A DNA stretch of 64,000 nucleotides from Segetibacter koreensis DSM 18137 (GTDB lineage Bacteria; Bacteroidota; Bacteroidia; Chitinophagales; Chitinophagaceae): NCBI RefSeq assembly GCF_000374045.1, contig NZ_KB893385.1, positions 62,001-126,000 of the forward strand. The letters are read 5' to 3'. Numbering within the stretch: the first letter of the stretch is position 1; each line of letters starts with the position of its first letter. This document shows, in pieces, positions 15,841 through 30,280 of this stretch. The position numbers and the translations under genes were made by a program. A model generated the notes under the pieces. The model saw nothing but the letters and a program-made list of their open reading frames with translations. It ran no database searches and was not told where the DNA came from.

Positions 15841-15857
15841 TCTACTGATTTGGTAGA
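15841..15857. promoter_or_regulatory. Palindromic operator TCTAC-N7-GTAGA at the cysH promoter
   Basis: An inverted repeat with five-base arms and a seven-base spacer (TGATTTG), followed by C. It overlaps the TTG -33 element of the cysH promoter, a position suited to repression. The same palindrome with a nearly identical spacer (CAATTTA) lies at 27182-27200 on the promoter of the TonB-dependent receptor that closes this sulfur island. No regulator gene is in the window. What binds here is inferred to be a sulfur-responsive repressor. Confidence 0.6.
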
Positions 15858-15880
15858 CGAATAATTCTGCCTTAATTTTG
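15850..15880 (+). promoter_or_regulatory. cysH operon promoter (TTG-N20-TAATTTTG)
   Basis: TTG at 15850-15852 and TAATTTTG at 15873-15880, spacer 20 bp, 26 bp before the cysH ATG. The -33 element sits inside the palindromic operator. Confidence 0.7.
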
Positions 15881-15906: not shown

Positions 15907-16647
15907 ATGACTCAGCAATTATCAGATTATATAGCGGATTTACAAATAAAGTCAAAGGACTTGTCGATAGCTGAAATGCTGAAGCAATTAACCCTTTCGC
16001 ATCCCGGAAAAGTTACTTTTTCAACTAGCTTCAGTTGGGAAGACCAGGTTATTTCACATCATATTCTTTCAAATAATCTTCCCGTTAGGATATTCACCCT
16101 CGATACAGGAAGGCTTTTTCCTGAGACTTACTCTGTTTGGAGTCGTACAAATGAGCGCTACACTACTAATATTAAGCCTTATTATCCTGACAATACTTTA
16201 CTTGAACCTTTTGTATCAGAAAAAGGTCCTAACTCTTTCTACGAATCTCCTGAAAACAGGATAAGCTGCTGCCACATTCGTAAAGTGGAGCCCTTACGCC
16301 GTGCGCTAAAGGGAAATGAAATTTGGGTGACAGGCCTTCGTGCAGAGCATTCTCCTAACCGTCATGATCTTGAAGCATTTGAGTGGGATGAAGTTAACGG
16401 GCTGATAAAATTTCATCCATTGGTAAGTTGGACGACAGAAGAAGTGAAGGCTTATATAAACGAGCATAATATACCTTATAATATTTTACACGACAGAGGT
16501 TTTGTTAGTATAGGTTGCCAGCCCTGCACAAGAGCTATTCAACCCGGCGAAGACTTCAGAGCCGGAAGGTGGTGGTGGGAAGACAGTAGCAAAAAAGAAT
16601 GTGGTTTACACGTTCATACTAATAGTAATAACCTTCAACAAGCATAG
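15907..16647 (+). CDS. cysH: Phosphoadenylyl/adenylyl-sulfate reductase, iron-sulfur (APS reductase) type
   Basis: A 246-residue reductase. It has the substrate loop SFSWEDQ near 41-47, the LDTGRLFPETY segment, cysteine pairs C121/C122 and C204/C207 that in this family bind a [4Fe-4S] cluster, and the C-terminal catalytic ECGLH at 231-235. The cluster cysteines mark enzymes that reduce adenylyl sulfate to sulfite with thioredoxin. No APS kinase (CysC) gene or domain is present in the operon, which agrees with direct use of APS. First gene of the sulfate assimilation operon; a 7-bp gap leads to cysD. Confidence 0.93.
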   Translation: MTQQLSDYIADLQIKSKDLSIAEMLKQLTLSHPGKVTFSTSFSWEDQVISHHILSNNLPVRIFTLDTGRLFPETYSVWSRTNERYTTNIKPYYPDNTLLEPFVSEKGPNSFYESPENRISCCHIRKVEPLRRALKGNEIWVTGLRAEHSPNRHDLEAFEWDEVNGLIKFHPLVSWTTEEVKAYINEHNIPYNILHDRGFVSIGCQPCTRAIQPGEDFRAGRWWWEDSSKKECGLHVHTNSNNLQQA

Positions 16648-16654
16648 TGGTAAT

Positions 16655-17563
16655 ATGAGCAAATATCATTTTGATTATTTAGATAATTTAGAATCGGAAG
16701 CGATTCATATATTTCGCGAAGTAGCCGGCCAGTTCGAGCGACCTGCATTATTATTTTCGGGAGGCAAGGACTCTATTACGCTGGTTCATCTTGCGCTAAA
16801 AGCTTTTCGCCCCGGAAAGTTTCCATTTCCTCTGGTGCACATCGATACAGGACACAACTTCCCCGAAGCCTTAGCTTTTCGTGATCATTTAGCAGAAAAA
16901 ATAGGCGAAAAATTGATCGTACGAAATGTTGAGGACACTATAAAGGCAAAAGGCCTCACAGAACAAAAAGGAAAGTTTGCAAGTCGCAATGCCCTTCAAA
17001 CTTTTACTTTATTAGATACGATTGAAGAATTTAAGTTTGATGCTTGCATTGGCGGCGCGCGTCGTGATGAAGAAAAAGCGAGAGCTAAAGAAAGAATATT
17101 TTCTGTTCGTGATGAGTTTGGACAATGGGATCCAAAACTGCAACGCCCGGAATTATGGAATACTTACAATGGAAAAATACATAAAGGCGAAAATGTGCGT
17201 GTTTTCCCTATAAGTAACTGGACAGAGCTAGATGTATGGAATTATATCCGCCGCAATAATATTGAGTTGCCTTCGATTTATTATGCACATGAAAGAGAGG
17301 TATTGGAATACGAAAACCAACTGGTAGCCACAAGTGAGTTCATAAGAGTTGACCCGGGAGATAGTATTGTAAGGAAAACTGTTAGGTATCGCACGGTAGG
17401 TGATATGACATGTACAGCAGCGGTGGAGTCAAACGCAAGTACCATCGAAGATATAATTTCTGAGATCATAGCTACAAAAACCAGTGAAAGAGGTGAAACT
17501 CGCATCGATGACAGGGTTAGTGAGGCAGCGATGGAAGATCGAAAAAAGAATGGATATTTCTAA
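16655..17563 (+). CDS. cysD: Sulfate adenylyltransferase subunit 2
   Basis: A 302-residue protein of the PP-loop ATP pyrophosphatase fold, with SGGKDS at 35-40, HIDTGHNFPE near 70 and the family's long RDE-rich and R-x-R-YRT(V)GD C-terminal segment. With CysN it activates sulfate to APS. The open frame extends upstream into cysH, but the ATG at 16655 gives the standard MSKYHFDYL-type start and a 7-bp gap; earlier ATGs would overlap cysH by 47 bases. Cytosolic; second gene in the operon. Confidence 0.95.
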   Translation: MSKYHFDYLDNLESEAIHIFREVAGQFERPALLFSGGKDSITLVHLALKAFRPGKFPFPLVHIDTGHNFPEALAFRDHLAEKIGEKLIVRNVEDTIKAKGLTEQKGKFASRNALQTFTLLDTIEEFKFDACIGGARRDEEKARAKERIFSVRDEFGQWDPKLQRPELWNTYNGKIHKGENVRVFPISNWTELDVWNYIRRNNIELPSIYYAHEREVLEYENQLVATSEFIRVDPGDSIVRKTVRYRTVGDMTCTAAVESNASTIEDIISEIIATKTSERGETRIDDRVSEAAMEDRKKNGYF

Positions 17564-17709
17564 CTGTTTCAGCGTTGAAGTGAGGAAAGAGAATACAGCT
17601 TTTAGGGCAAGAAAAGGGAAAAATACCAGGATAAGAACCAAAAATACTTTAATTAATAATTAAACAACTTAACTCCCGTTTACCAGGGATTTAGGGCAAA
17701 ACACAAAAT

Positions 17710-17728
17710 CCCCTTTAGGGGTTAGGGG
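17710..17728. repeat. GC-rich palindromic element abutting the cysN start
   Basis: CCCCTTTAGGGG (17710-17721) followed by TTAGGGG, ending one base before the cysN ATG at 17730. An earlier GGGATTTAGGG lies about 20 bp upstream. Similar elements precede cysI and dnaJ. It stands out from the AT-rich surroundings. Confidence 0.6.
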
Positions 17729-17729
17729 C

Positions 17730-18983
17730 ATGGATATATTAAAACTAATAACAGCAGGAAGTGTTGATGATGGTAAAAGTACTTTAATAGGACGTTTACT
17801 TTACGATAGCAAATCAATTTTGATTGATCAGTTAGAGGCGATCGAAAAACAAAGTAAGAATAAGGAACAAGGTGAAATCGACCTGGCTTTGCTTACTGAT
17901 GGTCTTCGTGCTGAGCGTGAGCAGGGAATTACAATAGACGTTGCATACAAGTATTTTTCAACGCCTAAACGCAAGTTTATTATTGCAGATGCTCCGGGCC
18001 ATATACAGTACACTCGCAACATGGTTACAGGCGCAAGCAATTCTGACCTTGTTATTATTTTAATTGATGCCCGTCATGGTGTTATTGAGCAAACACGGCG
18101 TCATTCTATTATTGCTTCCTTGCTTCAGCTTCCGCATATTGTAGTTGCTATAAATAAAATGGACCTGGTTGAATTTAAAGAAGATGTTTATAATAATATC
18201 GTAATTGAATATTCAAAAGTTGCTGCTCAGCTAGGTTTAAAGGACGTTACTTATATTCCTATCTCTGCTTTAAATGGTGATAATATTGTTGACAAGAGCG
18301 ATAAAATGCCTTGGTATCAAGGCGAGTCATTGTTGTCTTTTTTAGAGCAAGTAGAAGTCGAAAAAGATATTAATTATACAGACGCCCGTTTTCCGGTTCA
18401 GTATGTAATAAGACCTCAAACAGAAGAATTACATGATTATCGTGGATATGCCGGAAAGCTTATAAGCGGTGTTTTTGCAAAAGGTGATAAAATAATTGTA
18501 CAGCCTTCTGGTTTGACAAGCAAAATAAAATCTATAGAAATTGGGGGCGAAGAGATAGATGAAGCTTATGCACCGCAAAGTGTTGTGTTACAACTGGAAG
18601 ATGACATAGATGTAAGCCGTGGTGATGTAATAGTGCCGGTTGATAATCTTCCTCATGTAGAGCAGGAAGTAGATGTACTGGTATGTTGGATGGCAAATAA
18701 ACCATTTGCTGCAGGCAATCGTTATTTTCTGCAAATAAATAGCCGTGTCGTAAAAACCGTAGTGAAAGAAATCGATTACAGGCTGGATGTTAACAGTCTC
18801 GAAAAAGATTATAGCATAAAAAGCGCTGCATTGAATGATGTGGTAAAAGCTAAGATTAAAACAGCGTCACCAATTGTATTTGATGAGTATGATAAACTAC
18901 GAGTAAACGGTGGAGCTATTTTAATTGACGAAACAAGTTTAGTAACAGTCGGCGCTTGCATGATACAAACCCTTAACCCGTAA
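17730..18983 (+). CDS. cysN: Sulfate adenylyltransferase subunit 1 (GTPase)
   Basis: A 417-residue EF-Tu-like GTPase with GSVDDGKS at 10-17, DAPGH at 87-91 and NKMD at 142-145, then two beta-barrel domains. GTP hydrolysis drives APS formation by CysD. The length fits CysN alone: there is no C-terminal APS kinase domain as in CysNC fusions, which suits the APS-reducing CysH. It starts 166 bp after cysD, the largest gap in the first half of the operon, with a GC-rich palindrome at its start codon. Confidence 0.95.
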   Translation: MDILKLITAGSVDDGKSTLIGRLLYDSKSILIDQLEAIEKQSKNKEQGEIDLALLTDGLRAEREQGITIDVAYKYFSTPKRKFIIADAPGHIQYTRNMVTGASNSDLVIILIDARHGVIEQTRRHSIIASLLQLPHIVVAINKMDLVEFKEDVYNNIVIEYSKVAAQLGLKDVTYIPISALNGDNIVDKSDKMPWYQGESLLSFLEQVEVEKDINYTDARFPVQYVIRPQTEELHDYRGYAGKLISGVFAKGDKIIVQPSGLTSKIKSIEIGGEEIDEAYAPQSVVLQLEDDIDVSRGDVIVPVDNLPHVEQEVDVLVCWMANKPFAAGNRYFLQINSRVVKTVVKEIDYRLDVNSLEKDYSIKSAALNDVVKAKIKTASPIVFDEYDKLRVNGGAILIDETSLVTVGACMIQTLNP

Positions 18984-19001
18984 AGGACACTAATAAGAGC
19001 T

Positions 19002-19865
19002 ATGGAATTGCAAACAGAACCACATACTCAAAGCATGGATCAACGGGAGTTTATCAACGCAGTCTTTAAACGGAACACAACTTGTTTTAAAGGATTTCCT
19101 GATAAGCAAATTGCAGAAGATTTTATAGATGAATTGTTTTTTTTCCTGTTTGGTACACATAAAAGAAAGTTGGGGGAAGAAAAACTTGTTGAGCAATATG
19201 AAGGCATTAAAAGCACTTTTTCAGCATTGCTTTTCGAACTGGTTAAAAATGAAGAACAGGTAAAACAGCATACTTCCAGTCTGTTTGCTGCTATTCCACA
19301 TACATATAAAAATTTGCTGTTAGACGCAGAAGAAATTTTAAAATTTGACCCTGCTGCTCAGTCTATTGAAGAAGTATTGGTTGCCTATCCGGGGTTTTAT
19401 GCAACCGCAATTTACCGTATTGCCCACCAGTTACATACCCAGGGAATTAAAACTTTACCAAGAATATTGTCTGAATATGCACATAGCAAAACGGGGATAG
19501 ATATACATCCCGGGGCAGAAATTGGCGAGTCATTTTTTATTGACCATGGTACCGGTATTGTAATTGGTGAAACAGCGATAATCGGAAATTGCGTAAAAGT
19601 ATATCAGGGCGTTACGTTGGGTGCATTAAATGTTGCTAAAAGTGCGGCTAGTACCAAACGTCATCCAACTATCGAAAACAATGTAATTATTTATTCAGGT
19701 GCTACGATTTTAGGCGGCGACACAATAATAGGACATGATAGCATTATTGGTGGTAATGTCTGGCTAACTTATAGCGTTCCACCTTTTTCAGTAGTATATC
19801 ATAAAAGTGAAATACAGGTGAGGGATAAAAATCCTTTGCCAGAGGTTTTAAATTTTGTGATATAA
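19002..19865 (+). CDS. cysE: Serine O-acetyltransferase
   Basis: A 287-residue protein with an alpha-helical N-terminal part (about 1-150) and a left-handed beta-helix of hexapeptide repeats (about 165-270), including [25 protein letters not shown] and YQGVTLGA. These are the acyltransferase and active-site strands of the SAT/EpsC type. It makes O-acetylserine, the acceptor for sulfide. Gap to cysN is 18 bp and to cysK 16 bp, so the cysteine-forming pair is cotranscribed with sulfate activation. Confidence 0.93.
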
Positions 19866-19881
19866 CAATATAAAAATAAAG

Positions 19882-20793
19882 ATGAAAGCGCAGAATATAT
19901 TAGAAACGATAGGAAATACACCGCATGTACGTATTAATAAGTTGTTTGGTAATGAATATGAGGTATGGATAAAACTGGAGAAGAATAATCCGGGAGCAAG
20001 TATAAAAGACAGGATTGCTTTATCGATGGTTGAAGATGCAGAAGCCAGAGGCATTTTAAAAGAAGGCAGTGTAATTGTTGAACCGACCTCAGGTAATACA
20101 GGTATCGGACTGGCTATGGTGGCTGCAGTAAAAGGTTATAAGCTAATTGTTGTAATGCCTGAAAGTATGAGCATTGAAAGGAGAAAACTTATGGCACTTT
20201 ATGGGGCCGAGTTTGTACTGACTCCTCGTGAAAAAGGCATGAAAGGAGCTATTGAAACAGCGACAGAAATCGTAAACACAACATCAAATGCCTGGATGCC
20301 TGCCCAGTTTGATAATCCTGCAAATACTGAGATTCACAGGCGTACTACTGCAACTGAGATATTAAATGATTTTCCGGAAGGATTGGATTATATAATTACA
20401 GGTGTTGGTACAGGCGGACATATTACGGCTTTGTGCGAAATACTGAAAGAAAAATTTGCAAATCTAAAAGTATTTGCAGTTGAACCTGCATTATCACCGG
20501 TAATTAGTGGTGGCGCTCCAGGTCCTCACCCGTTACAAGGGTTAGGTGCTGGTTTTGTTCCATCTATCTTAAATACGGCTCTTTTAGATGGTACTATTCA
20601 GATTCAAAAAGAAGAAGCATTTGAATACGCACAACGTGCAGCAAGGGAAGAAGGGATTTTGGTAGGTATTTCTACAGGAGCTGCATTAGCGGCAGTCGCT
20701 CAAAAATTACCATCAATTCCAAAAGGTTCCAGAGTGCTTACATTTTGTTATGATACAGGTGAAAGGTATTTATCTATAGAAGGTTTGTTTTAA
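19882..20793 (+). CDS. cysK: Cysteine synthase (O-acetylserine sulfhydrylase)
   Basis: A 303-residue PLP enzyme. The PLP lysine is K42 in SIKDR, the TSGNTG substrate loop lies at 69-74, and the phosphate-binding GVGTGGH loop near 173-179; the C-terminal STGAA is also present. It combines O-acetylserine and sulfide to cysteine. It directly follows cysE, and the two gene products form a regulatory complex in other bacteria. CysK and CysM cannot be fully separated by sequence inspection. Confidence 0.92.
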
Positions 20794-20881
20794 ACAAATT
20801 TCATAGAAAATGCTGAAAACCAGGAAAAGCTTATTAGGGATTGTATTTCCCTGATCTCCTTTTCCAACAGAAAATTTTATT

Positions 20882-21742
20882 ATGATAACCGGAATACAAC
20901 AGGTGAAAGGGAAAGTGATATTAGCTGCTGCTGGTCCGGGTGACCCTGAACTTATCACTATAAAAACTGCCCGTTATTTGTCACAGGCGGATGTTGTGCT
21001 AACGGACCGCCTGGTTAGTGAAGAAATATTGAACCAATACGTAAAACCTGATGCAGAGATTGTATATGTAGGAAAGCAATGCCGCAGAGGCGTGTCTACC
21101 CCGCAGTCAACCATTAATGAACTGATGGTGCAATTTGCATCGGAAGGTAAACTGGTGGTACGTTTAAAAGGTGGTGATGTATCGATATTCTCAAATATTA
21201 TGGATGAATTAGAAACGGTTGTTTCTAATAATATTCCTTACGAAATTATTCCCGGCGTAACTGCCGCTTTAGGTGCAGCAGCTTATGCGGGCATTCCATT
21301 AACTGCAAGAGGATATTCAACAGCAGTTCGGTTGCTTACTTACTATAAATCAGACGTAGTTACAAACGAATACTGGAAAGAACTTGCCGAAACCGACGAT
21401 ACCCTGGTTTTTTATATGTCGTCAGAAACATTGGATAAACTGGTAGAAAAACTGGTAGAAAATAGCATTGCAGAAAATAAACTACTTGCAGTAATTGAAC
21501 AGGCAACAACTCCTTTGCAAAATGTTCACATTGCAAGTTTATATGAATATGAAGAACGGCTGAAAGGTGTGTCTTTTATTTCGCCGTCATTGGTAATTAT
21601 AGGAAAAGTAGTTGCTCTTAATGAGCAATTTGGCTGGCTAAAAAACAGTAATAGCAGCGAATATTATTTCAAACCGGTTTCTAATCAATTTACAACAATC
21701 GAAAATTCGAATAAAGCAATCTTAAATGCTACAAGAGTCTAA
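20882..21742 (+). CDS. cobA: Uroporphyrinogen-III C-methyltransferase (SUMT)
   Basis: A 286-residue SAM-dependent methyltransferase of the tetrapyrrole methylase fold. Motifs: AAGPGDPELIT near 18-28, VYVGKQ near 60, VRLKGGDVSIF near 94-104 and PGVTAALGAAAYAGIPLT near 128. It makes precorrin-2, the precursor of siroheme for CysI. The C-terminal 30 residues are beyond the usual SUMT end. The next gene, cysJ, overlaps its 3' end by 17 bp, so expression of the flavoprotein is coupled to siroheme synthesis. Confidence 0.92.
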   Translation: MITGIQQVKGKVILAAAGPGDPELITIKTARYLSQADVVLTDRLVSEEILNQYVKPDAEIVYVGKQCRRGVSTPQSTINELMVQFASEGKLVVRLKGGDVSIFSNIMDELETVVSNNIPYEIIPGVTAALGAAAYAGIPLTARGYSTAVRLLTYYKSDVVTNEYWKELAETDDTLVFYMSSETLDKLVEKLVENSIAENKLLAVIEQATTPLQNVHIASLYEYEERLKGVSFISPSLVIIGKVVALNEQFGWLKNSNSSEYYFKPVSNQFTTIENSNKAILNATRV

Positions 21743-23438
21743 ATTAAAAAACCTGCTTGACTATTTATCCACCCTTACTAATGAGGAAACGATTTGGGTA
21801 AGTGGTTACTTGTCAGGAATGCTTTCTAACGGAAAAGTACAGCCCGCAACAGCAGTACCAGCCGCAGAAGCAAAGCCATTGGTAAATAAGATTACTATTA
21901 CTTATGGCACTGAAACAGGCAATTCAAAGAAATTAGCTTCTGAGTTTGCTTCAAAAGCAAAGAAAAATGGAATTAATGCAAAGGTGGTAAGTCTCGACCA
22001 GTATAGATTAAACGACCTCCCAAAGGAAGATTATTTCTTATCCATCGTGAGCACGCATGGTGAAGGAGAACCTCCTGCGGCAGCAAAAAAGTTTTATGAC
22101 CACATTCATTCAAATGGCTTCACACTAGACAAACTAAAATATGGCGTTTTAGCGTTAGGCGATACTTCTTATCCACTATTTTGTACCGCCGGCGAAGATG
22201 TAGATAAGCAATTAGAAAAGCTGGGCGGAAAGCGGATTATACCCCTGCAGAAGTGTGACGTTGATTTCGAAAGCGACGCGAATGGATGGTTTACCCAGGT
22301 TTTGCACCAACTGACTGCTCCGGCTCCCGCAGCAAATACCCAGGTCATTTCTGCTCCGGTAATTAGCAAAAAATCAACTGGCAAAAAGATCTATAACGGC
22401 ACTATTTTAACCAATGTAAATCTTAACGACAGGGGCTCTAACAAAGAAACTCATCATGTTGAAATTGCTGCTGAGGATATAGAATATTTGCCCGGCGACT
22501 CGCTTGGTGTTATTCCTGAAAACCCGTTAAGAATTGTTGAACCGATAGTTGAACTTTTAAATATAGACCGTCAAAAAACCTTTACTTTTCGCAGTGAAGA
22601 AGTAACTGCTTTTGATTTGCTTAAAAAGAAGCTGAATATTTTTTATTTACCAGAAAGGGTAGTTAGTAAATATGCCGCTTTGGTTAACCAGGATATCCCT
22701 TCAACAAAAATTGCTTTGCTTGATTTGTTGAAAATTTATCCATTAAAAGACAATAGCCAATTTGATGAGTTGATAGAAATACTTGAACCTATTGCTCCAA
22801 GATTATATTCTATTTCTTCATCTCCTGAAGCACATAGCGGAGAAGTGCATATAACTGTTGCAAGAGACAAGTTTCATGTAAATGAAGAATGGAAATGTGG
22901 TTTGTGTTCTGATTATTTATCTCAGTTACCAGTTGATAGTAATATCGAATTTTACATTCACAAAAATAATCAGTTCCGTTTACCCGCAGATGATAAAGAC
23001 ATCATTATGATCGGCCCGGGAACAGGGATTGCACCTTTCCGTTCTTTTCTTGCACAACGCGATGCAACAGGTGCAACGGGCCTTAGCTGGCTATTTTTTG
23101 GAGACCAGCATTTTGTAACCGATTTTCTATACCAGACAGAACTTCAAAACTGGAAAGAAACAGGAACACTTACAAAAATAAATGTAGCCTTCTCCCGTGA
23201 CCAGAAAGAAAAAGTATATGTACAGCATAAAATGCTAAAGCATGGAGAAGAATTATACAGTTGGATAAACAGTGGAGCTTCAGTATACGTTTGTGGAGCG
23301 AAAGAACCAATGAGTGCTGATGTAGAAGATACATTAATGCAAATTGTAGAAAAGTTTGGCAATAAAACAATAGAAGAAGCAGTACAATTTATTGAACAAT
23401 TAAAAGAAGATGACAGGTATTTGAAGGATGTGTATTAG
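21726..23438 (+). CDS. cysJ: Sulfite reductase [NADPH] flavoprotein alpha-subunit
   Basis: A 570-residue diflavin reductase: an N-terminal helical cap (1-50), an FMN-binding flavodoxin domain with TYGTETGNS near 57-66, an FAD domain with RLYSISSSP near 358-366, and an NADPH domain with GPGTGIAPFRSF near 423 and a C-terminal region ending in RYLKDVY with the conserved aromatic last residue. It passes electrons from NADPH to CysI. The start overlaps cobA by 17 bp. Confidence 0.94.
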   Translation: MLQESKLKNLLDYLSTLTNEETIWVSGYLSGMLSNGKVQPATAVPAAEAKPLVNKITITYGTETGNSKKLASEFASKAKKNGINAKVVSLDQYRLNDLPKEDYFLSIVSTHGEGEPPAAAKKFYDHIHSNGFTLDKLKYGVLALGDTSYPLFCTAGEDVDKQLEKLGGKRIIPLQKCDVDFESDANGWFTQVLHQLTAPAPAANTQVISAPVISKKSTGKKIYNGTILTNVNLNDRGSNKETHHVEIAAEDIEYLPGDSLGVIPENPLRIVEPIVELLNIDRQKTFTFRSEEVTAFDLLKKKLNIFYLPERVVSKYAALVNQDIPSTKIALLDLLKIYPLKDNSQFDELIEILEPIAPRLYSISSSPEAHSGEVHITVARDKFHVNEEWKCGLCSDYLSQLPVDSNIEFYIHKNNQFRLPADDKDIIMIGPGTGIAPFRSFLAQRDATGATGLSWLFFGDQHFVTDFLYQTELQNWKETGTLTKINVAFSRDQKEKVYVQHKMLKHGEELYSWINSGASVYVCGAKEPMSADVEDTLMQIVEKFGNKTIEEAVQFIEQLKEDDRYLKDVY

Positions 23439-23540
23439 CCTCATCCCCAAGAGGGTGTAAGGGTTACCTATTTCATATCAGTTTTTACAACAATATTTTA
23501 AACAACACTTTCCCTATTTTAAAAGGAGTTCTTAAAAATT

Positions 23541-23556
23541 CCCTTTGGGTGGGGGC
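23541..23556. repeat. GC-rich CCCTTTGGG-TGGGGGC element ahead of cysI
   Basis: CCCTTTGGG (23541-23549) followed by TGGGGGC, 19 bp before the ATG of cysI. It has the same layout as the elements at the cysN and dnaJ starts. A looser version lies just after the cysJ stop (23445-23470). It explains why the open frame extends upstream of the real start. Confidence 0.5.
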
Positions 23557-23574
23557 AAATTCCGGCTCACAATC

Positions 23575-25248
23575 ATGGCTGAAAATAACGAGAACCTTTC
23601 GTCAACCGAGAGGATAAAGATGGCAAGTGATAGTCTTAGAGGAACATTTGTTGAAAGTCTTGCTAATGAGATTACAGGCAGTATAAATGAAGATGATATT
23701 GCACTTGTACGCTTTCATGGAATGTATATTCAGGACGACCGCGACCGCAGGGATGAACGTGCAGAAAAGAAGCTGGAGCGCCTGTATTCCTTCATGATAA
23801 GGTTACGATTAACCGGCGGAGTTATATCTCCTGAACAATATATTGCTCTTCATAATATAGCAGGAGAAAACTCTACAGGTGTTCTTAAGATTACAACAAG
23901 ACAAACCATACAGCTGCATGGTGTTTTAAAATCTAAGGTAAAACCTACACTTAAAGCCTTTAACCAGGCCGGATTAACAACCATTGCTACCTGTGGAGAT
24001 ATAAATCGTAATGTGTTGTGTTCTTCTCATCCGAAGCAATCTCCTCTTCATGCAGAAATATTTGCTTATGCAAAAGATATAGCAACTATGATGTTGCCGA
24101 AAACAAATGCATATTATGAAATATGGCTCGATGGAGAAAAAATAGCTGATAAAGAGCTGGAGGCGGACCCCTTATACCAAAACAGGTATATGCCTCGTAA
24201 ATTTAAAGTGGGTATTGTTATTCCACCTAATAATGATATTGATGTATTAGCTAACGACCTTGCTTTGATTGCAATTGTAGACAATGGTGAACTAAAAGGG
24301 TTCAATATAGCGATTGGCGGCGGCATGTCTGCAACTCATGGCAATCCCGACCATTATCCACGTCTTGCATCTGTTCTCGGTTTTGTCGAGGGCAAAGAAA
24401 AAACATTAAAGGCTGTTTACGAGGTAGCAACCATACAGAGAGACTATGGCAATCGTAGTGATAGAAAAGTTGCCCGATTAAAATATACAGTTGACAGGCT
24501 TGGGTTAGAATGGTGGAAACAGGAGCTTGAAAGAAGATGTGGCTTTGAATTGCAGGAAGCACAGCCTTTTCATTTTGAATCTCGCCGTGATTATTATGGT
24601 TGGGAACAAAATCATGAAGGGTTATGGTATTATACTGTGTTTGTTGAAAACGGAAGAATCCTTGATGATGAAAATGTGGCTTTAAAAACTGCCTTGTTAC
24701 AAGTAGCGCAAACAGGTAAGGCGAACTTCATATTTACTTGTAATCAAAATGTAATTCTTGGTGATATACAACCAGAAGACAAAGCAGCCATTGAAGATAT
24801 TTTGAATAAGTATAGAATCATTGAACACACCAATAACGCATCTGTTATTCGTAAAAATGCTATGGCTTGTGTGGCTTTAAACACTTGCCCGCTAGCCTTG
24901 GCAGAAGGTCAGCGTTATATGCCTACGCTACTTTCAAAAATAGAACCGTTATTAATTAAGCATGACTTAATAATGGAAGAAATAGTAATGCGTATGACCG
25001 GATGTCCCAACGGATGTGCAAGACCTTTTGCAGCAGAAATAGGTTTCGTTGGAACTGCGCTTGGAAAGTACAATCTTCAGTTAGGTGGTGACAGAGTTGG
25101 CCAGCGTCTTAATAAGCTTTATAAAGAAAGCCTAGAAGAAGAAGCTATTTTAACTGAACTTGATAATCTTTTCGAACGATTTGTTGCTGAAAGAATAGAC
25201 GGTGAGACATTTGGTGATTTTACTTTTAGAAAAGTTGTAGCCCCTTAA
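23575..25248 (+). CDS. cysI: Assimilatory sulfite reductase (NADPH) hemoprotein beta-subunit
   Basis: A 557-residue siroheme/[4Fe-4S] protein. The cluster cysteines are visible at about 432 and 438 (CVALNTC) and 477 and 481 (CPNGC). Siroheme-contact arginines sit in ITTRQTIQLHG and the GIGGGMS-like segment (AIGGGMS). It reduces sulfite to sulfide with six electrons from CysJ. The open frame begins at a TTG in the GC-rich element; the ATG at 23575 is chosen because it gives the standard N-terminus. N replaces the P found in many CysI at CVALPTC. Confidence 0.95.
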   Translation: MAENNENLSSTERIKMASDSLRGTFVESLANEITGSINEDDIALVRFHGMYIQDDRDRRDERAEKKLERLYSFMIRLRLTGGVISPEQYIALHNIAGENSTGVLKITTRQTIQLHGVLKSKVKPTLKAFNQAGLTTIATCGDINRNVLCSSHPKQSPLHAEIFAYAKDIATMMLPKTNAYYEIWLDGEKIADKELEADPLYQNRYMPRKFKVGIVIPPNNDIDVLANDLALIAIVDNGELKGFNIAIGGGMSATHGNPDHYPRLASVLGFVEGKEKTLKAVYEVATIQRDYGNRSDRKVARLKYTVDRLGLEWWKQELERRCGFELQEAQPFHFESRRDYYGWEQNHEGLWYYTVFVENGRILDDENVALKTALLQVAQTGKANFIFTCNQNVILGDIQPEDKAAIEDILNKYRIIEHTNNASVIRKNAMACVALNTCPLALAEGQRYMPTLLSKIEPLLIKHDLIMEEIVMRMTGCPNGCARPFAAEIGFVGTALGKYNLQLGGDRVGQRLNKLYKESLEEEAILTELDNLFERFVAERIDGETFGDFTFRKVVAP

Positions 25249-25352
25249 AAATCTATTAGGATTGATTTAGCAAAAACGTTTTAAGTTGATTTTTTAAAAA
25301 ATTTTGAAACTGTTTTTTCCATTTTACAACAAAAACAGTTTGGGAAGAATGA

Positions 25353-26933
25353 ATGATGCCGGAAACTAAGTCAAATATAGAAGAGCAAGTTTTACCTGCA
25401 AGAGTAAAAGAAACAAACAATTTGTTTCCTGTTTTTTTAAAACTGGAACAGATGCGTCTGTTAATTGTAGGAGGCGGAAATATTGGCCTGGAAAAGCTTA
25501 ATACAGTTTTACAAAATTCTCCGTTAACTAAAATTACATTAGTTGGAATAACAATAAAAAATGAGATAAAGCACCTTGCTGCAAAGCATCCTAATATAAC
25601 ATTGCACGAAAGAGCTTTTGTTGTAGATGATTTGGAAGAAGCGGACCTGGTAATTGTTGCAATAGATGATACTTATGCAAGTGCCGAAATAAGTAATGCA
25701 GCAAAGAAAAAAGGAAAACTGGTAAATGCTGCTGATAAACCTGCCCTATGTGATTTTTACTTAGGTTCTGTTGTAAAAAAAGGTAGTCTAAAGATTGCTA
25801 TCTCTACTAATGGCAAATCGCCGACAATTGCAAAACGGCTGAAGGAAGTAATAAATAATATGTTGCCCGACGAGATGGAAAGTGTGCTCGACAACATGGA
25901 AACAATCAGGAATGGAATTGACGGTGATTTTAATGAAAAAGTAAGAAAGCTTAATGACCTTACAAAATTGCTGGTTGCCAAGCAAATTGATTTGGAAGCA
26001 GAACCAAAGCATGAAGAAAAGCAATGGCAAAAAGTTGTTAAGTGGTGTTTGTTCGCTTTTTTATTTATGATAATCGGTCATGGTTTACTTTCTTATATAC
26101 CTTATCATAGAATAATTGAAGGTGTAAGGACCATCCCGGAATATATTGATACAAAGTCTTTTTCAATCATGTTGCTTACGGGTTTCCTTGCTCAAATGAC
26201 CGATGGGTCTTTGGGGATGGGTTATGGCACTATTTCAACAACCTTTCTTTTGGCTAATGGTGTTCCGCCGGCCATTGTCAGTAGCAGAGTTCATTCTGCA
26301 AGAGTTTTTTCAAGTGGCGTATCCGGTTACAGCCATCATCGTTTTGGCAACATTAATAAAAAATTATTTCGTGCCCTTGTTATTCCCGGTGTTGTGGGTG
26401 CGGTAATAGGAGCGATTTTAGCATTTTTAGGTCAAAAATATTCTTCTTACGTCCGCATTCCCCTCTCCATTTATACCTTATATCTCGGGTATTATATTAT
26501 TAGTAAGGCTTTTAATAAAAACAGGTTTCAAAACAAAGTAAAAAAAGCGGGTTGGCTTGCTTCTGCGGGAGGCTTTATGGATGCTTTCGCTGGTGGCGGT
26601 TGGGGTACATTGGTTACAAGCACTTTAATTGCCAAAAGAAGAAGCGCCCGTTACGTAATTGGCTCAGTTTGTCTTGCAGAGTTTTTTGTAGTACTGGCAA
26701 GTTCTATCACCTTTTTTATTTTATTAAAAAGTGTTCCTCTTTTAGATGTTGCAGGCCTTATTATAGGTGGTCTTATTGCAGCACCAATAGCGGCCAGGCT
26801 GGTAGGTAAATTACCTTTAAAAACAATGTTTATTATTGTTGGTAGCTTCGTTATTCTTACAAGTTTAAATACCCTGTACAAAACTTCAAAGCAAGTCTTA
26901 CAGCCCGAGGTGAAGGCAAGTGTTCAACATTAA
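25353..26933 (+). CDS. Fusion: Met8/CysG-N-like precorrin-2 dehydrogenase + TSUP (TauE/SafE) permease
   Basis: A 526-residue protein of two parts. Residues about 25-215 form a Met8/CysG N-domain, with the NAD-binding GGGNIG near 40-45, VIVAIDDT near 101 and NAADKPALCDFY, where the aspartate fits the dehydrogenase/chelatase residue, then STNGKSP. Residues about 230-515 are a TauE/SafE permease with eight or so hydrophobic segments and the repeated GxxGMGYG and GGGWGT motifs. The first part makes siroheme from precorrin-2; the second moves sulfite, sulfate or an organosulfonate. The operon has no other sulfate permease. A second ATG is three bases in. Confidence 0.85.
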   Translation: MMPETKSNIEEQVLPARVKETNNLFPVFLKLEQMRLLIVGGGNIGLEKLNTVLQNSPLTKITLVGITIKNEIKHLAAKHPNITLHERAFVVDDLEEADLVIVAIDDTYASAEISNAAKKKGKLVNAADKPALCDFYLGSVVKKGSLKIAISTNGKSPTIAKRLKEVINNMLPDEMESVLDNMETIRNGIDGDFNEKVRKLNDLTKLLVAKQIDLEAEPKHEEKQWQKVVKWCLFAFLFMIIGHGLLSYIPYHRIIEGVRTIPEYIDTKSFSIMLLTGFLAQMTDGSLGMGYGTISTTFLLANGVPPAIVSSRVHSARVFSSGVSGYSHHRFGNINKKLFRALVIPGVVGAVIGAILAFLGQKYSSYVRIPLSIYTLYLGYYIISKAFNKNRFQNKVKKAGWLASAGGFMDAFAGGGWGTLVTSTLIAKRRSARYVIGSVCLAEFFVVLASSITFFILLKSVPLLDVAGLIIGGLIAAPIAARLVGKLPLKTMFIIVGSFVILTSLNTLYKTSKQVLQPEVKASVQH

Positions 26934-27152
26934 TATCTGTTCGCCATTGCTTCTGTAGTAGATATAGATAATTAATTAAACTTTCTCCTTTAAGAAAGAT
27001 GAGCGAAATACGACCCAACAAATGCTTCATTTGAGTAACTATGCTCATACCAGAATATCTAAAAAAGAATTTTCTTCTTTGAAAACATTTTATAGCCTGC
27101 CCCTTTTTTGCAACCTAAAAAGACTTCCGCGAACTAAGTGTTTAAAATAAAT

Positions 27153-27182
27153 TTGGAAAGTAAAAATAGTGTACTACTTTTG
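27153..27182 (+). promoter_or_regulatory. Promoter of the leader ORF and TonB receptor (TTG-N19-TACTTTTG)
   Basis: TTG at 27153-27155 and TACTTTTG at 27175-27182 with a 19-bp spacer. Transcription would begin near 27188-27190, inside the palindromic operator and about 14 bp before the leader ORF. Confidence 0.7.
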
Positions 27183-27200
27183 TCTACCAATTTAGTGGAC
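27182..27200. promoter_or_regulatory. Palindromic operator GTCTAC-N7-GTGGAC at the TonB receptor promoter
   Basis: Six-base arms with one mismatch and a CAATTTA spacer. It shares TCTAC-(C/T)(A/G)ATTT(A/G)-GT(A/G)GAC with the cysH operator at 15841-15857. It begins at the last base of the -7 box and covers the start point, a classical repressor site. Confidence 0.6.
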
Positions 27201-27202
27201 TA

Positions 27203-27265
27203 ATGAATAAAATTTCTTTTCTGATTCTCGGTCATGCCCCTTCAACAACTACCTGTTGTGGGTAA
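27203..27265 (+). CDS. Putative 20-codon leader peptide ending Thr-Thr-Thr-Cys-Cys-Gly
   Basis: ATG at 27203, stop TAA at 27263-27265. The peptide begins MNKISFLIL and ends APSTTTCCG. Two tandem Cys codons (27254-27259) sit one codon from the stop, just downstream of a strong promoter and 30 bp upstream of the TonB receptor ATG. The layout is like amino-acid-starvation leader peptides: short, just after the start point, with repeated codons of the pathway product at the end. Cysteine-codon leader ORFs controlling sulfur genes are known in mycobacteria; I know of no described case in Bacteroidota. Translation is inferred. Confidence 0.5.
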   Translation: MNKISFLILGHAPSTTTCCG

Positions 27266-27294
27266 CCCCCCAAATTAATCAAGCATATTTTTTT
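27243..27294 (+). promoter_or_regulatory. Candidate attenuator: two mutually exclusive small hairpins and a T-run
   Basis: Hairpin A pairs CAACA (27243-27247) with TGTTG (27254-27258), both in the end of the leader ORF. Hairpin B pairs TTG-x-GGG (27256-27262) with CCC-x-CAA (27267-27273), covering the second Cys codon, Gly and stop. They share 27256-27258, so only one can form. A run of seven T follows at 27288-27294, just before the receptor ATG. The stems are short, so this is suggestive only. Confidence 0.3.
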
Positions 27295-27295
27295 A

Positions 27296-30280
27296 ATGAC
27301 AACAACTGATAAAATGAAACATCTTTTACCGGAAGGTAATTCTTACGCAAAAAAATCTCAAACAATAAAAATCATTCTCTTTTTTTGGCTCTTTATTTCT
27401 CTTGTAAATTTTTCTTTCTCCCAAGGAAATAACCTGATAGAGATTTCAGGAACAGTAGAGAACCAGCAGACAAAAGAACCGTTGGCTTCGGTTAGTGTTC
27501 AAATAAAAGGAACAGTAGCAGGAACAACTACAAACAATCTTGGCCAGTTTACATTTAAAACTAAAAATAAATTCCCGCTTACCCTTGTCTTTTCATCTAT
27601 AGGCTTTGAGCAGCAGGAATTTGAGGTAAAAAGTATTAATTCAAAGCTTTCTATTGCTTTGGTTACACAAACAGTACTTGGAAAAGAAGTGGTAGTTACG
27701 GCATCACGCGTAGCTGAAAGTATTTTAAAATCTCCTGTCGCCATTGAAAAATTAGACATTAGGGCTATACGAGAATCGCCTGCTCCCAGTTTTTATGACG
27801 CACTTGAAAATGTAAAAGGAGTGCAAATGACTACATCAAGCCTTACGTTTAAAGTTCCGAATACACGTGGTTTTAATATTCCCAACAACTTTCGCTTCAT
27901 GCAATTGGTCGATGGTGTAGATATGCAGGCAGCGACATTAGGCGTTCCTTTAGGAAATGCCATAGGCCCAACCGAACTTGACATTGCAAGTATAGAAATT
28001 ACGCCGGGTGCGGCATCGGCCTTATATGGCATGAATGCAATAAACGGAATGGCAAATCTGCTTACCAAAAGCCCGTTTCTTTACCAGGGATTGAGCGTTT
28101 ATCAAAAGACCGGCGTTAACCATGTTGATGGCAAAGACCATGATCCCGGCATTTTAACTGAAACTGCTATTCGTTATGCAAAAGCTTTTAATAATAAATG
28201 GGCTTTTAAGATTAACGGAAGTTACATGCGGGGGATAGACTGGAGATCAAATACAAGACTCGATCAGAATACGAATAACCTTAAAAGTGCTAACCCTGGC
28301 TTTCCTGAATTAAACGGAGCAAATAATGTTGCTTTTGATGGATGGAATAAATACGGAGATGATGCACTTGCCGGCAGCAATGTTGTATCTATCAGTGGCC
28401 TTACCTTAAATGGGCAACCTAACCAGACGCTACGTATTGCCCGCACAGGTTATTGGGAAACAGACTTGGTAAGTCCCAAAGTAGATAATCTGAAATTTGA
28501 TGCTGCAGTTCATTACCGTTTAGGCGAAAATGCAGAATTATCTTACTCGTATCGTTTTGGTAAAATGGATGGAGTTTTTCAACGTGGCAATAAAATACAA
28601 CTCGATAATGTGATTGTGCAAAACCATCACCTTGAACTCAAAGGAAGCAATTACGTAATCCGTAGTTATGTTTCCATTGAAAACACCGGAGATTCTTATA
28701 ACGTAAAGCCTTTGGCCGATAACCTTGATTTGTATAGCGGCGGCAGTAATACTGCGTGGGCGGCCAAGTATAAAAGTGCACTTGTGAAGCAACTAAATAC
28801 TGGCGCGGATCTCGCATCTGCTTCGCAACTTGCACGGCAGGCAGCAGATGCAGGTCGTGTAGAACCAGGAACACCTGAATTTGAAAACTTAAAAAATACG
28901 ATAATAAAGATTAATAATTGGGATATTAAATCGGGCACAATACCTGATGCTCCCGTAACTGGTGGTGCTGCTTTATTACAAAAAAGCCGTTTGTTTCATA
29001 CAGAAGCACAATGGGACTTATCTAAGCAAGTAAAAATCTTTGATTTGTTAATAGGTGGAGATGCCCGCGTTTATCAAATCATCCCTGATGGAAATAACTT
29101 TGTAGATTTTTCACGACCTATTGCAGACCGCAATAAAGCATTACCTGATGGGAGCTTTGGGCACAATGTATATTACAAAAAGTTGGGTGCCTTTACGCAG
29201 GCTACAAAAACTTTTTTCAAGGAAAAATTAAAACTGTTTGGTTCATTGAGGTTTGATTACAATCCTGAATTCGACCCTAAATTTACGCCACGACTGGCTG
29301 CCGTATATACAGTAAATGATAAACACAACTTTCGCTTCACCTTTCAGCAAGGCTATCGTTTTCCTGCACTTTTTGAAGCCCTTTCTTATGTAAATAATGG
29401 CAGGGTTAAGCGCGTAGGTAGCTTATCATATATTAATGAAGGCTTAGGTTACCTGGAAAACAGCTACACCCAGGCTTCAGTCATCAATTTTAATGCTGCC
29501 GCAAGCGCTGCAGGTAACAGTGACTCTGCGGCTTTAGCAAACAGAAGTTTACTTAAAGTAGCAAACTTACCAAAGGCACGACCAGAGAAAATTAATTCTT
29601 TCGAAGTTGGTTATAAAAGTGTTCTTTTTAATAATAAACTGGTATTAGATATCGATGCCTACAGTAACCAGTATAATGGTTTTCTCGGTCAGGTACAGGT
29701 ATTTGTGCCAAAGGGACAAACAGTTGGTACAGATGCGTCTATACTTGCAATGTTAGACAGGAACAGAGATGCTACAACCGCAACAGCTACTACTGCCTCA
29801 AGTAATGGCCAGGACCGTTACCGCGTTTACACAAATGCGACAAACACTTATCATAATTATGGATCGGCATTGGGAGTTACTTATAATTTTTATAAAAAAT
29901 ATACGGTCTCGGGTAACGTAAACTATAACAAGATGAAATCTAATGCGACTAATGATATTTTTGTTACCGGCTTCAATACTCCTGACTGGTCAACTAATCT
30001 CTCATTTGGTAATCGCGCTATTGTAAAAAACATTGGTTTCAATATTGTGTGGAGATGGCAAAATGCTTTTTTATGGGAGAGTCCTCTTGTAACCGGAAAA
30101 GTTTCAGCTTACAGCACTATGGATGCCCAGGTTACTTTCAGGGTTCCGAAGGCAAAGGCAAACATTAAAGTGGGAGGTTCTGATATTTTCAATCACCGCT
30201 ACTTGCAATATGCAGGAGGTCCTACATTGGGAGGCTTGTATTACGTAGCGATTACTTTTGATAACCTCTTAAATAATTAA
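27296..30280 (+). CDS. TonB-dependent outer membrane receptor (sulfur-island associated)
   Basis: A 994-residue receptor: a basic and hydrophobic signal peptide ending near FSFSQG, a carboxypeptidase-regulatory-like beta domain (about 48-130, with ISGTV and TTTNNLGQF), a plug domain (about 135-255, with VPNTRGFN and ALYGMNAINGMANL), and a 22-strand-type barrel to the C-terminus. It imports a substrate across the outer membrane using TonB energy. Its position after the sulfate operon, shared operator and Cys-rich leader suggest a sulfur compound, by inference. The next in-frame ATG (27314) is also a possible start. No SusD partner is adjacent. Confidence 0.9.
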   Translation: MTTTDKMKHLLPEGNSYAKKSQTIKIILFFWLFISLVNFSFSQGNNLIEISGTVENQQTKEPLASVSVQIKGTVAGTTTNNLGQFTFKTKNKFPLTLVFSSIGFEQQEFEVKSINSKLSIALVTQTVLGKEVVVTASRVAESILKSPVAIEKLDIRAIRESPAPSFYDALENVKGVQMTTSSLTFKVPNTRGFNIPNNFRFMQLVDGVDMQAATLGVPLGNAIGPTELDIASIEITPGAASALYGMNAINGMANLLTKSPFLYQGLSVYQKTGVNHVDGKDHDPGILTETAIRYAKAFNNKWAFKINGSYMRGIDWRSNTRLDQNTNNLKSANPGFPELNGANNVAFDGWNKYGDDALAGSNVVSISGLTLNGQPNQTLRIARTGYWETDLVSPKVDNLKFDAAVHYRLGENAELSYSYRFGKMDGVFQRGNKIQLDNVIVQNHHLELKGSNYVIRSYVSIENTGDSYNVKPLADNLDLYSGGSNTAWAAKYKSALVKQLNTGADLASASQLARQAADAGRVEPGTPEFENLKNTIIKINNWDIKSGTIPDAPVTGGAALLQKSRLFHTEAQWDLSKQVKIFDLLIGGDARVYQIIPDGNNFVDFSRPIADRNKALPDGSFGHNVYYKKLGAFTQATKTFFKEKLKLFGSLRFDYNPEFDPKFTPRLAAVYTVNDKHNFRFTFQQGYRFPALFEALSYVNNGRVKRVGSLSYINEGLGYLENSYTQASVINFNAAASAAGNSDSAALANRSLLKVANLPKARPEKINSFEVGYKSVLFNNKLVLDIDAYSNQYNGFLGQVQVFVPKGQTVGTDASILAMLDRNRDATTATATTASSNGQDRYRVYTNATNTYHNYGSALGVTYNFYKKYTVSGNVNYNKMKSNATNDIFVTGFNTPDWSTNLSFGNRAIVKNIGFNIVWRWQNAFLWESPLVTGKVSAYSTMDAQVTFRVPKAKANIKVGGSDIFNHRYLQYAGGPTLGGLYYVAITFDNLLNN

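Follow-up and report, generated by a model that had tools for sequence, protein, structure and literature searches.

Recurrent cysteine-codon leader ORFs upstream of sulfur-linked TonB-dependent receptor genes in Bacteroidota

Here we describe a recurrent, sulfur-linked and cysteine-codon-rich short open reading frame (ORF) that occupies the position of a leader upstream of TonB-dependent receptor genes in Bacteroidota. The starting point was a 20-codon ORF in a stretch of 64,000 nucleotides (nt) of the Segetibacter koreensis DSM 18137 genome (hereafter, the window). This ORF is likely to be a cysteine-sensing leader peptide, at which ribosome pausing would control the receptor; that it is translated, that ribosomes pause on it and in which direction the response runs are points that we infer. 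The genes that follow such leaders include genes of the cysteine pathway: cysH at 8 of 25 loci and, in the S. koreensis genome itself, sulfatase-type and desulfurase-linked loci. Leaders of this type would belong to a known kind, the ribosome-sensed amino acid attenuators, and are apparently new for Bacteroidota, with features of their own. The least certain part of the explanation is the read-out that would connect pausing to the receptor.

A first-pass annotation of the window had placed a candidate leader between a promoter and a receptor gene of a sulfur island, and this arrangement is borne out. Translation yields the ORF with its Thr-Thr-Thr-Cys-Cys-Gly terminus, a Bacteroidota-type promoter precedes it, a run of seven T (27288–27294) stands near the end of the gap before the receptor ATG at 27296, and the receptor follows directly downstream of a row of cys genes (Table 1). 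The promoter was recognized by eye and presumably belongs to this type, judging from the consensus as generally known; its TACTTTTG element ends 20 nt before the leader ATG, and a scan of 26900–27500 for E. coli-type promoters detected none. Overlooked in the first pass was a palindromic, operator-like box (CTACCAATTTAGTGGACTAA) at 27184–27203. With up to three mismatches, the operator pattern has 5 matches in the window against 0.88 expected, 4 of which are the two strands of the sites at 27184 and 15842. Among the cys genes, cysH and cysD were named from their translations and not by profile, and cysE and cysJ score below the NCBI equivalog cut-offs. A PDB search with the receptor matched only a part of the Colicin I receptor and gave no hint of a substrate, and at the gathering score Rfam returned 0 matches in the window to described leaders or riboswitches.

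Table 1 Features of the leader locus and the adjoining cysteine genes in the window
Feature	Positions	Strand	Remarks
cysH, cysD, cysN, cysE, cysK, cobA, cysJ, cysI, siroheme synthase/TauE fusion	15907–26933	+	Sulfate assimilation and cysteine synthesis
Second operator-like box	15842–15861	+	5' of cysH; no Cys leader seen there
Bacteroidota-type promoter	27152–27182	+	TTTG 27152–27155, 19 nt, TACTTTTG 27175–27182; by eye
Palindromic operator-like box CTACCAATTTAGTGGACTAA	27184–27203	+	Ends on the A of the leader ATG
Leader ORF, 20 codons, MNKISFLILGHAPSTTTCCG-stop	27203–27265	+	ORF translation; C terminus Thr-Thr-Thr-Cys-Cys-Gly
Tandem Cys codons TGT TGT	27254–27259	+	Single Gly codon between the Cys pair and the stop
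Gap from leader stop to receptor ATG, 30 nt	27266–27295	+	C-rich and G-poor
TonB-dependent receptor, 994 amino acids	27296–30280	+	CarboxypepD_reg-like N-terminal domain

The comparison of orthologous receptors that had been suggested as a check supports the leader. We assembled 100 regions upstream of the receptor and its relatives in the same family (Chitinophagaceae), including that of the window, and applied a fixed test for an ATG-initiated ORF of 8–45 codons that contains CC within the 360 nt 5' of the match. The test was passed by 45 of the 100 regions, compared with a mean of 4.2 (s.d. 2.0, maximum 10) in 200 dinucleotide shuffles of the same regions, in which CC ORFs thus arise in about 4% of cases; the reverse strand gave 2 and the next 360 nt upstream gave 7. 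No other homodipeptide behaves in this way: CC occurs 45 times against 4.3 expected, followed by MM (9 against 4.0) and WW (1 against 0.6). Of 107 TGYTGY hexamers in the family regions, 65 share the frame of such an ORF, a number that falls to 10 with a shift of one and to 39 with a shift of two. The leader is not universal, as the fixed test finds none in 55 regions. Some of these CC-less regions hold ORFs that end in RC-stop (L083, L085, L105, L132, L134, L137, L139 and L140), and others, among the part of these regions inspected by eye, have an operator directly 5' of the receptor and no leader (L039, L041, L045 and L050). The set derives from 109 family matches, 10 of which were dropped because they lay near a contig end or had no N terminus (G077, G122, G419, G296, G218 twice, G275, G318, G076 and G260; with 441 nt upstream, G077 was in fact usable); adding one match (G148) gave 100 regions. 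Twelve more-distant receptors (L052–L063) were inspected by eye only, of which L059 and L063 have CC ORFs with no operator in view, and seven further matches that lacked a locus were left out. We also counted substitutions in 95 leader pairs of at least 45% identity: at Cys positions the codon is the same in 186 cases, synonymous in 36 and changed in 78, compared with 476, 159 and 403 at other positions. These counts were set aside because the pairs overlap and Cys had partly guided their choice.

Two other arrangements were seen in the family. A second type of leader carries Cys-Pro-x-Gly near its end (L042, L051, L103, L104, L143 and L146 and, by eye, L049, L147 and others); its Cys-Pro and Gly codons can pair as a small GC hairpin, for example TGCCC-TTT-GGGGGCA, and stretches resembling TGTCCC-nnn-GGGAC were noticed by eye in L142, L145, L148 and L149. 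In genus g72 (L065–L067, L069, L071, L074 and L075), terminator-like hairpins that alternate with operator-like boxes replace the Cys leader ORF, again as judged by eye.

Leaders also occur outside the family. From a profile search of named genomes we took the best 80 loci, of which 79 were usable (L196 was dropped because its upstream part is missing), and 48 of the 79 pass a loose test for CC, terminal RC or CPxG. For the 53 loci that we judged from their titles to lie outside the family, a CC ORF is present in 32 (shuffles 2.7, maximum 7) and CCC in 19 (0.13 in 100 shuffles). Cysteine runs can be long, up to CCCCCC in relatives of the window leader. In Mucilaginibacter, 10 of 11 leaders carry 3 to 6 consecutive Cys at or adjoining the end and one ends in HCC; Hymenobacter leaders include RRCCSR, KRCCCC, RRCCCSR and GRCC; Rufibacter leaders include YCCCCR and PSCCCR; and those of Adhaeribacter include SCCCCYFA and HRCCSCCLAL. 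Among these best 80 loci, the loose test found no leader at the Flavobacterium, Sphingobacterium, Dyadobacter and Spirosoma loci, nor at some of those of Hymenobacter. The named loci are not independent samples because Hymenobacter and Mucilaginibacter make up much of the set; the family and named sets share genomes, and duplicates were removed among leader sequences but not among loci.

A wider criterion (CC or terminal RC, the last Cys within 12 codons of the stop, and a gap of at most 200 nt) identifies leaders at 95 of 179 loci, 87 of them distinct and 9 of these ending in RC-stop. The 87 leaders have a median length of 22 codons, contain 1 to 8 Cys and are followed by a median gap of 79 nt; in 59, the last Cys is 0, 1 or 2 codons from the stop. 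A TAnnTTTG promoter element occurs within 110 nt 5' of the leader ATG in 53 of 87 (mononucleotide shuffles, 5.65), and in 17 of these 53 it ends 19–22 nt before the ATG, a range that includes the 20 nt of the window. Operator-like boxes lie within 130 nt upstream of the leader in 39 of 87 (mononucleotide shuffles, 2.05), between leader and receptor in 19, and in both places in 12.

These features suggest how the locus may work. Transcription would start about 15 nt 5' of the leader, from a promoter that is probably also controlled by a regulator binding the palindrome. A ribosome would translate the leader and, when charged tRNA-Cys is scarce, would pause at the Cys codons beside the stop; with sufficient charged tRNA-Cys, it would reach the stop and leave. 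The position of the ribosome would decide receptor expression, with pausing corresponding to 'on'. Our leading guess for the read-out, to which we give a little less than an even chance, is Rho-dependent termination in the gap, which a paused ribosome may block as in tnaC. We favour Rho over translational control of the receptor start because we found no shared RNA fold in the two genera aligned and no general terminator, and because the sequence just 5' of the receptor is rich in C and poor in G. Over the final 60 nt 5' of the receptor, C exceeds G by 0.129 with a leader (n = 60) and by 0.065 without (n = 77; P = 5 × 10^−5), a difference that fits Rho and is not specific to it; the C-rich gap is weak evidence for Rho.

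The main competitor, a possible but less probable read-out, is translational attenuation, whereby the stretch of Cys codons pairs with, or shapes a fold around, the receptor start, which a paused ribosome frees, a mechanism described for the polycysteine ORFs of mycobacteria. The anatomy matches that of the mycobacterial ORFs, and for ten leaders of Mucilaginibacter the terminal Cys codons have predicted probabilities of 0.60–0.92 of pairing with sequence downstream of the leader, mostly above those of shuffles. Across the 74 of 87 leaders with gaps of 15–130 nt, however, predicted pairing between the Cys codons and the receptor start is 0.102 compared with 0.101 in shuffles, being higher in only 15 of 74 (Wilcoxon P = 0.009, towards lower pairing), and pairing with anything downstream is only slightly raised (0.39 versus 0.33; 38 of 74; P = 0.10). 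Aligned leaders have no real consensus fold, with 0 pairs in 9 of the 11 from Mucilaginibacter and 3 pairs in 10 of the 14 from Hymenobacter. Sequestration of the start site by the Cys codons is thus unsupported over these 74 leaders.

For the window itself, the first pass had proposed two hairpins that exclude each other. Each does form when folded alone: the one at 27243–27258 has 5 bp and −2.4 kcal/mol (z = −4.13; 2 of 200 shuffles of the same 16 nt are as good) and the one at 27256–27273 has 4 bp and −4.6 kcal/mol (z = −0.47). Their mutual exclusion was not borne out: in a fold of 27240–27300 as one piece a shifted version of the first hairpin coexists with a GGG/CCC hairpin that is part of the second. 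The T run begins 14 nt beyond the second hairpin, and the 133-nt window leader has no excess of structure over shuffles (z = +0.61; 145 of 200 as good), which leaves an exclusive-hairpin switch unsupported as the read-out. The original proposal looks right in its core, the Cys leader, and wrong in its hairpin mechanism.

The leader family could be real and the ORF of the window nonetheless a chance or decayed copy. It has only two Cys and no CGATGTTG; its closest relatives, L035 and L036, have leaders quite unlike it; and in another close relative, L037, the nearest preceding ATG does not share the frame of the CC stretch, possibly through decay or an assembly error. Nevertheless, the ORF shows the promoter distance typical of the family, an operator and a near-terminal CC, and CC ORFs are as rare in shuffled regions as stated above, which makes this reading improbable.

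Codon usage in the leaders is distinctive. In the 49 Arg-Cys pairs of the 87 leaders, which were pre-chosen for CC or terminal RC, Arg is encoded by CGA 44 times; in the covered parts of the receptor genes, CGA accounts for 81 of 2,468 Arg codons (3%). The codon after CGA is TGT in 44 of 44 cases, followed by TGT (30), TGA (9) or TGC (5), and the stop after CGA-TGT is TGA in 9 of 9, although TAA and TAG were allowed. Searched for without pre-choice of leaders, the octamer CGA-TGT-TG (CGATGTTG) occurs at 46 distinct sites within 450 nt 5' of the receptors at 179 loci and at 2 in the other 851,544 nt. It is present in 44 of the 87 leaders and absent from 43, including that of the window and the Mucilaginibacter, Rufibacter and Adhaeribacter leaders shown above. 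In the S. koreensis genome (41 tRNA gene matches by Rfam, 40 by ARAGORN), the Arg anticodons include CCT, TCT, CCG and ACG but not TCG, and the only Cys anticodon is GCA, found twice. As there is no TCG anticodon and Cys has GCA alone, decoding probably relies on inosine-A wobble for CGA and on G-U wobble for TGT, and the two codons would form a slow-slow pair. Inhibitory CGA-CGA codon pairs are described for yeast (PMC6301793).

The concentration of the octamer upstream of receptors, and a stop after CGA-TGT that is always TGA, could also mean that what is conserved is a nucleic-acid motif, recognized by a protein or as RNA, and not the peptide or its codons. We consider this quite improbable: each of the 46 sites shares its frame with an ATG-initiated ORF that stops within 15 codons, the following base is T (32), A (9) or C (5) and never G, which would encode Trp, and half of the leaders do without the octamer.

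Classical transcription attenuation with an intrinsic terminator has some local backing and is very improbable as the general read-out. At three loci of genus g86 (L094, L097 and L099) and, weakly, at L208, a terminator-like hairpin separates leader and receptor (4 of 87; shuffles 0.2, maximum 1), and an intrinsic terminator is apparently used in one genus. The scan detects none in the other 83 leaders, and the + strand of the window has no terminator-like site between 26900 and 27500; another scan with different stem rules and loops of up to 11 nt found 2 of 87 (L051 and L208). In L094, L097 and L099, the order of elements is Cys leader, intrinsic-terminator-like hairpin and operator-like box.

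Beyond receptors, cysteine leaders accompany other sulfur genes. Upstream of cysH, at 25 loci that include that of S. koreensis, a CC ORF occurs at 8 (shuffles 1.5, maximum 7; reverse strand 3) and a CCC ORF at 6 (shuffles 0.05, maximum 1; reverse strand 0), for example MEKMKKYMCCCCCCR and MFSNSFIKCMQPCCCC. In the S. koreensis genome, the operator pattern with up to three mismatches has 14 matches, 7 on each strand, at 10 distinct sites, and reversed controls have 3 and 4. Examination of 8 of the 10 sites (L296 and L297 were left out) revealed three further poly-Cys ORFs about 100 nt past an operator, which with that of the window makes four. One, MNILTTNGLLTSFSYNTNVRVSRSACCNSMGCCC, lies about 435 nt 5' of SusC, SusD and sulfatase genes; MKAAIINNTRSENIYNNRFVMNCCCKGCC lies about 490 nt 5' of a fatty-acid-hydroxylase-like gene that is followed by a formylglycine-generating-enzyme-like gene; and MKNGTGLNRKALGGTKRALILQFFSSFQCCCMHSSCIC lies about 150 nt 5' of SusC/SusD, adjoining a class-V aminotransferase family gene that we take to be cysteine-desulfurase-like. 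Gaps of about 150, 435 and 490 nt to the next large ORF are far for a simple leader, and the cysH and desulfurase-like genes of this genome have the operator and no Cys leader that we could see. Together with the leaders of the orthologues, the cysH loci and these three loci support the original idea of a Cys-codon leader for a sulfur-linked receptor. A palindrome of about 20 bp resembling AGTCTACTAA-TTAGTAGACT marks several sulfur-linked promoters, at 27184–27203, 15842–15861, C14 and C15 (L285, L288–L290 and L295), and is probably bound by the candidate regulator.

We also scanned other genomes for an operator followed by the octamer, as well as for a generic ACNACNTGYTGYGG pattern. The combined pattern gave 4 matches in 195 genomes compared with 9 for a reversed-pattern control, and 31 in 294 genomes, for which the control columns hold more. 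Raw counts thus do not exceed the reversed control, and only the subsequent frame test sorts the matches: 14 of 30 operator-plus-octamer loci are in frame with a short ORF, and 7 of these 14 precede a receptor. Of the other seven, we trust L234, L255 and L259, which have the full operator palindrome, and place less trust in L241, L245 (in which a Trp codon follows the octamer), L254 and L256. The octamer leaders of L234 and L255 precede related genes (33% identity), of which that of L234 matches AhpC/TSA in Pfam and that of L255 has no Pfam match; the leader of L259 precedes a PhyH-family gene. Least probable of all is that the nascent Cys-rich peptide senses metal or redox state instead of cysteine supply, to which the AhpC/TSA-related pair might point, because the spacing of the Cys residues is not fixed, their number varies from 1 to 8, single-Cys RC-stop leaders exist and the linked genes include cysH and sulfatase-type loci.

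More broadly, and a shade more tentatively than we propose Rho, the leaders may be parts of a widespread cysteine regulon of Bacteroidota, in which unlinked sulfur loci carry Cys leaders behind a shared operator. The slow CGA-UGU-UG context (inosine-A wobble followed by G-U wobble and by Cys or a UGA stop) may sharpen the pause, and the read-out may work without a conserved RNA structure.

Leaders of this kind have well-known precedents. In trpL, hisL and others, a short leader ORF carries, towards its end, a cluster of codons for the amino acid that the pathway makes; the ORFs described here are likewise short, have a candidate promoter upstream and carry product codons near their ends beyond chance, but we see no shared antiterminator and terminator pair, with terminator-like hairpins in only 4 of 87. 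The tnaC leader of E. coli is Rho-dependent and responds to free tryptophan by nascent-chain arrest. The proposed ribosome held near the leader stop would similarly hide a C-rich, G-poor stretch; here, in contrast, starvation would cause the pause, and the role of Rho is our proposal. Closest in kind are the polycysteine leaderless short ORFs of mycobacteria, reportedly the subject of Canestrari et al. in 2020 (Mol Microbiol 114:93). Polycysteine short ORFs precede cysteine and sulfur genes in mycobacteria, with ribosome speed as the proposed sensor, according to passages of three articles (PMC9031893, PMC13236596 and PMC9094748). As far as those passages go, the likeness extends to contiguous Cys codons in a short ORF before cysteine or sulfur genes and to several sulfur loci in one genome (four in S. 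koreensis). The differences are the phylum, a predicted 5' untranslated region of about 15 nt, with which the start would not be leaderless, no sign in predictions for 74 of 87 leaders that the Cys codons hide a downstream start, the octamer CGA-TGT-TG in about half of the leaders, outer-membrane receptors among the targets and the link to a palindromic operator. In Bacteroidota, leader ORFs with suspected attenuation are described upstream of amino-acid biosynthesis operons in Flavobacterium psychrophilum (PMC9723704), as are short ORFs, likewise suspected of attenuation, in 5' leaders of Bacteroides thetaiotaomicron (PMC7366714); a cysteine case is not named in the main-text passages of either. 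The first-pass remark that no described case was known to it in Bacteroidota agrees with the literature matches listed, among which is no polycysteine or cysteine leader attenuation in this phylum, subscription papers being mostly outside the search.

If our reading is correct, ribosome-based sensing of cysteine extends from mycobacteria to a second phylum, and a read-out that requires no conserved RNA structure would be a different way of attenuation. The dozens of natural leader variants would then provide material on how pausing can be read out without a shared terminator, and the CGA-TGT-TG context is a sharp clue to codon-pair pausing in bacteria. For the organisms themselves, such leaders would explain how the scavenging of sulfur by receptors and sulfatases could follow the supply of cysteine.
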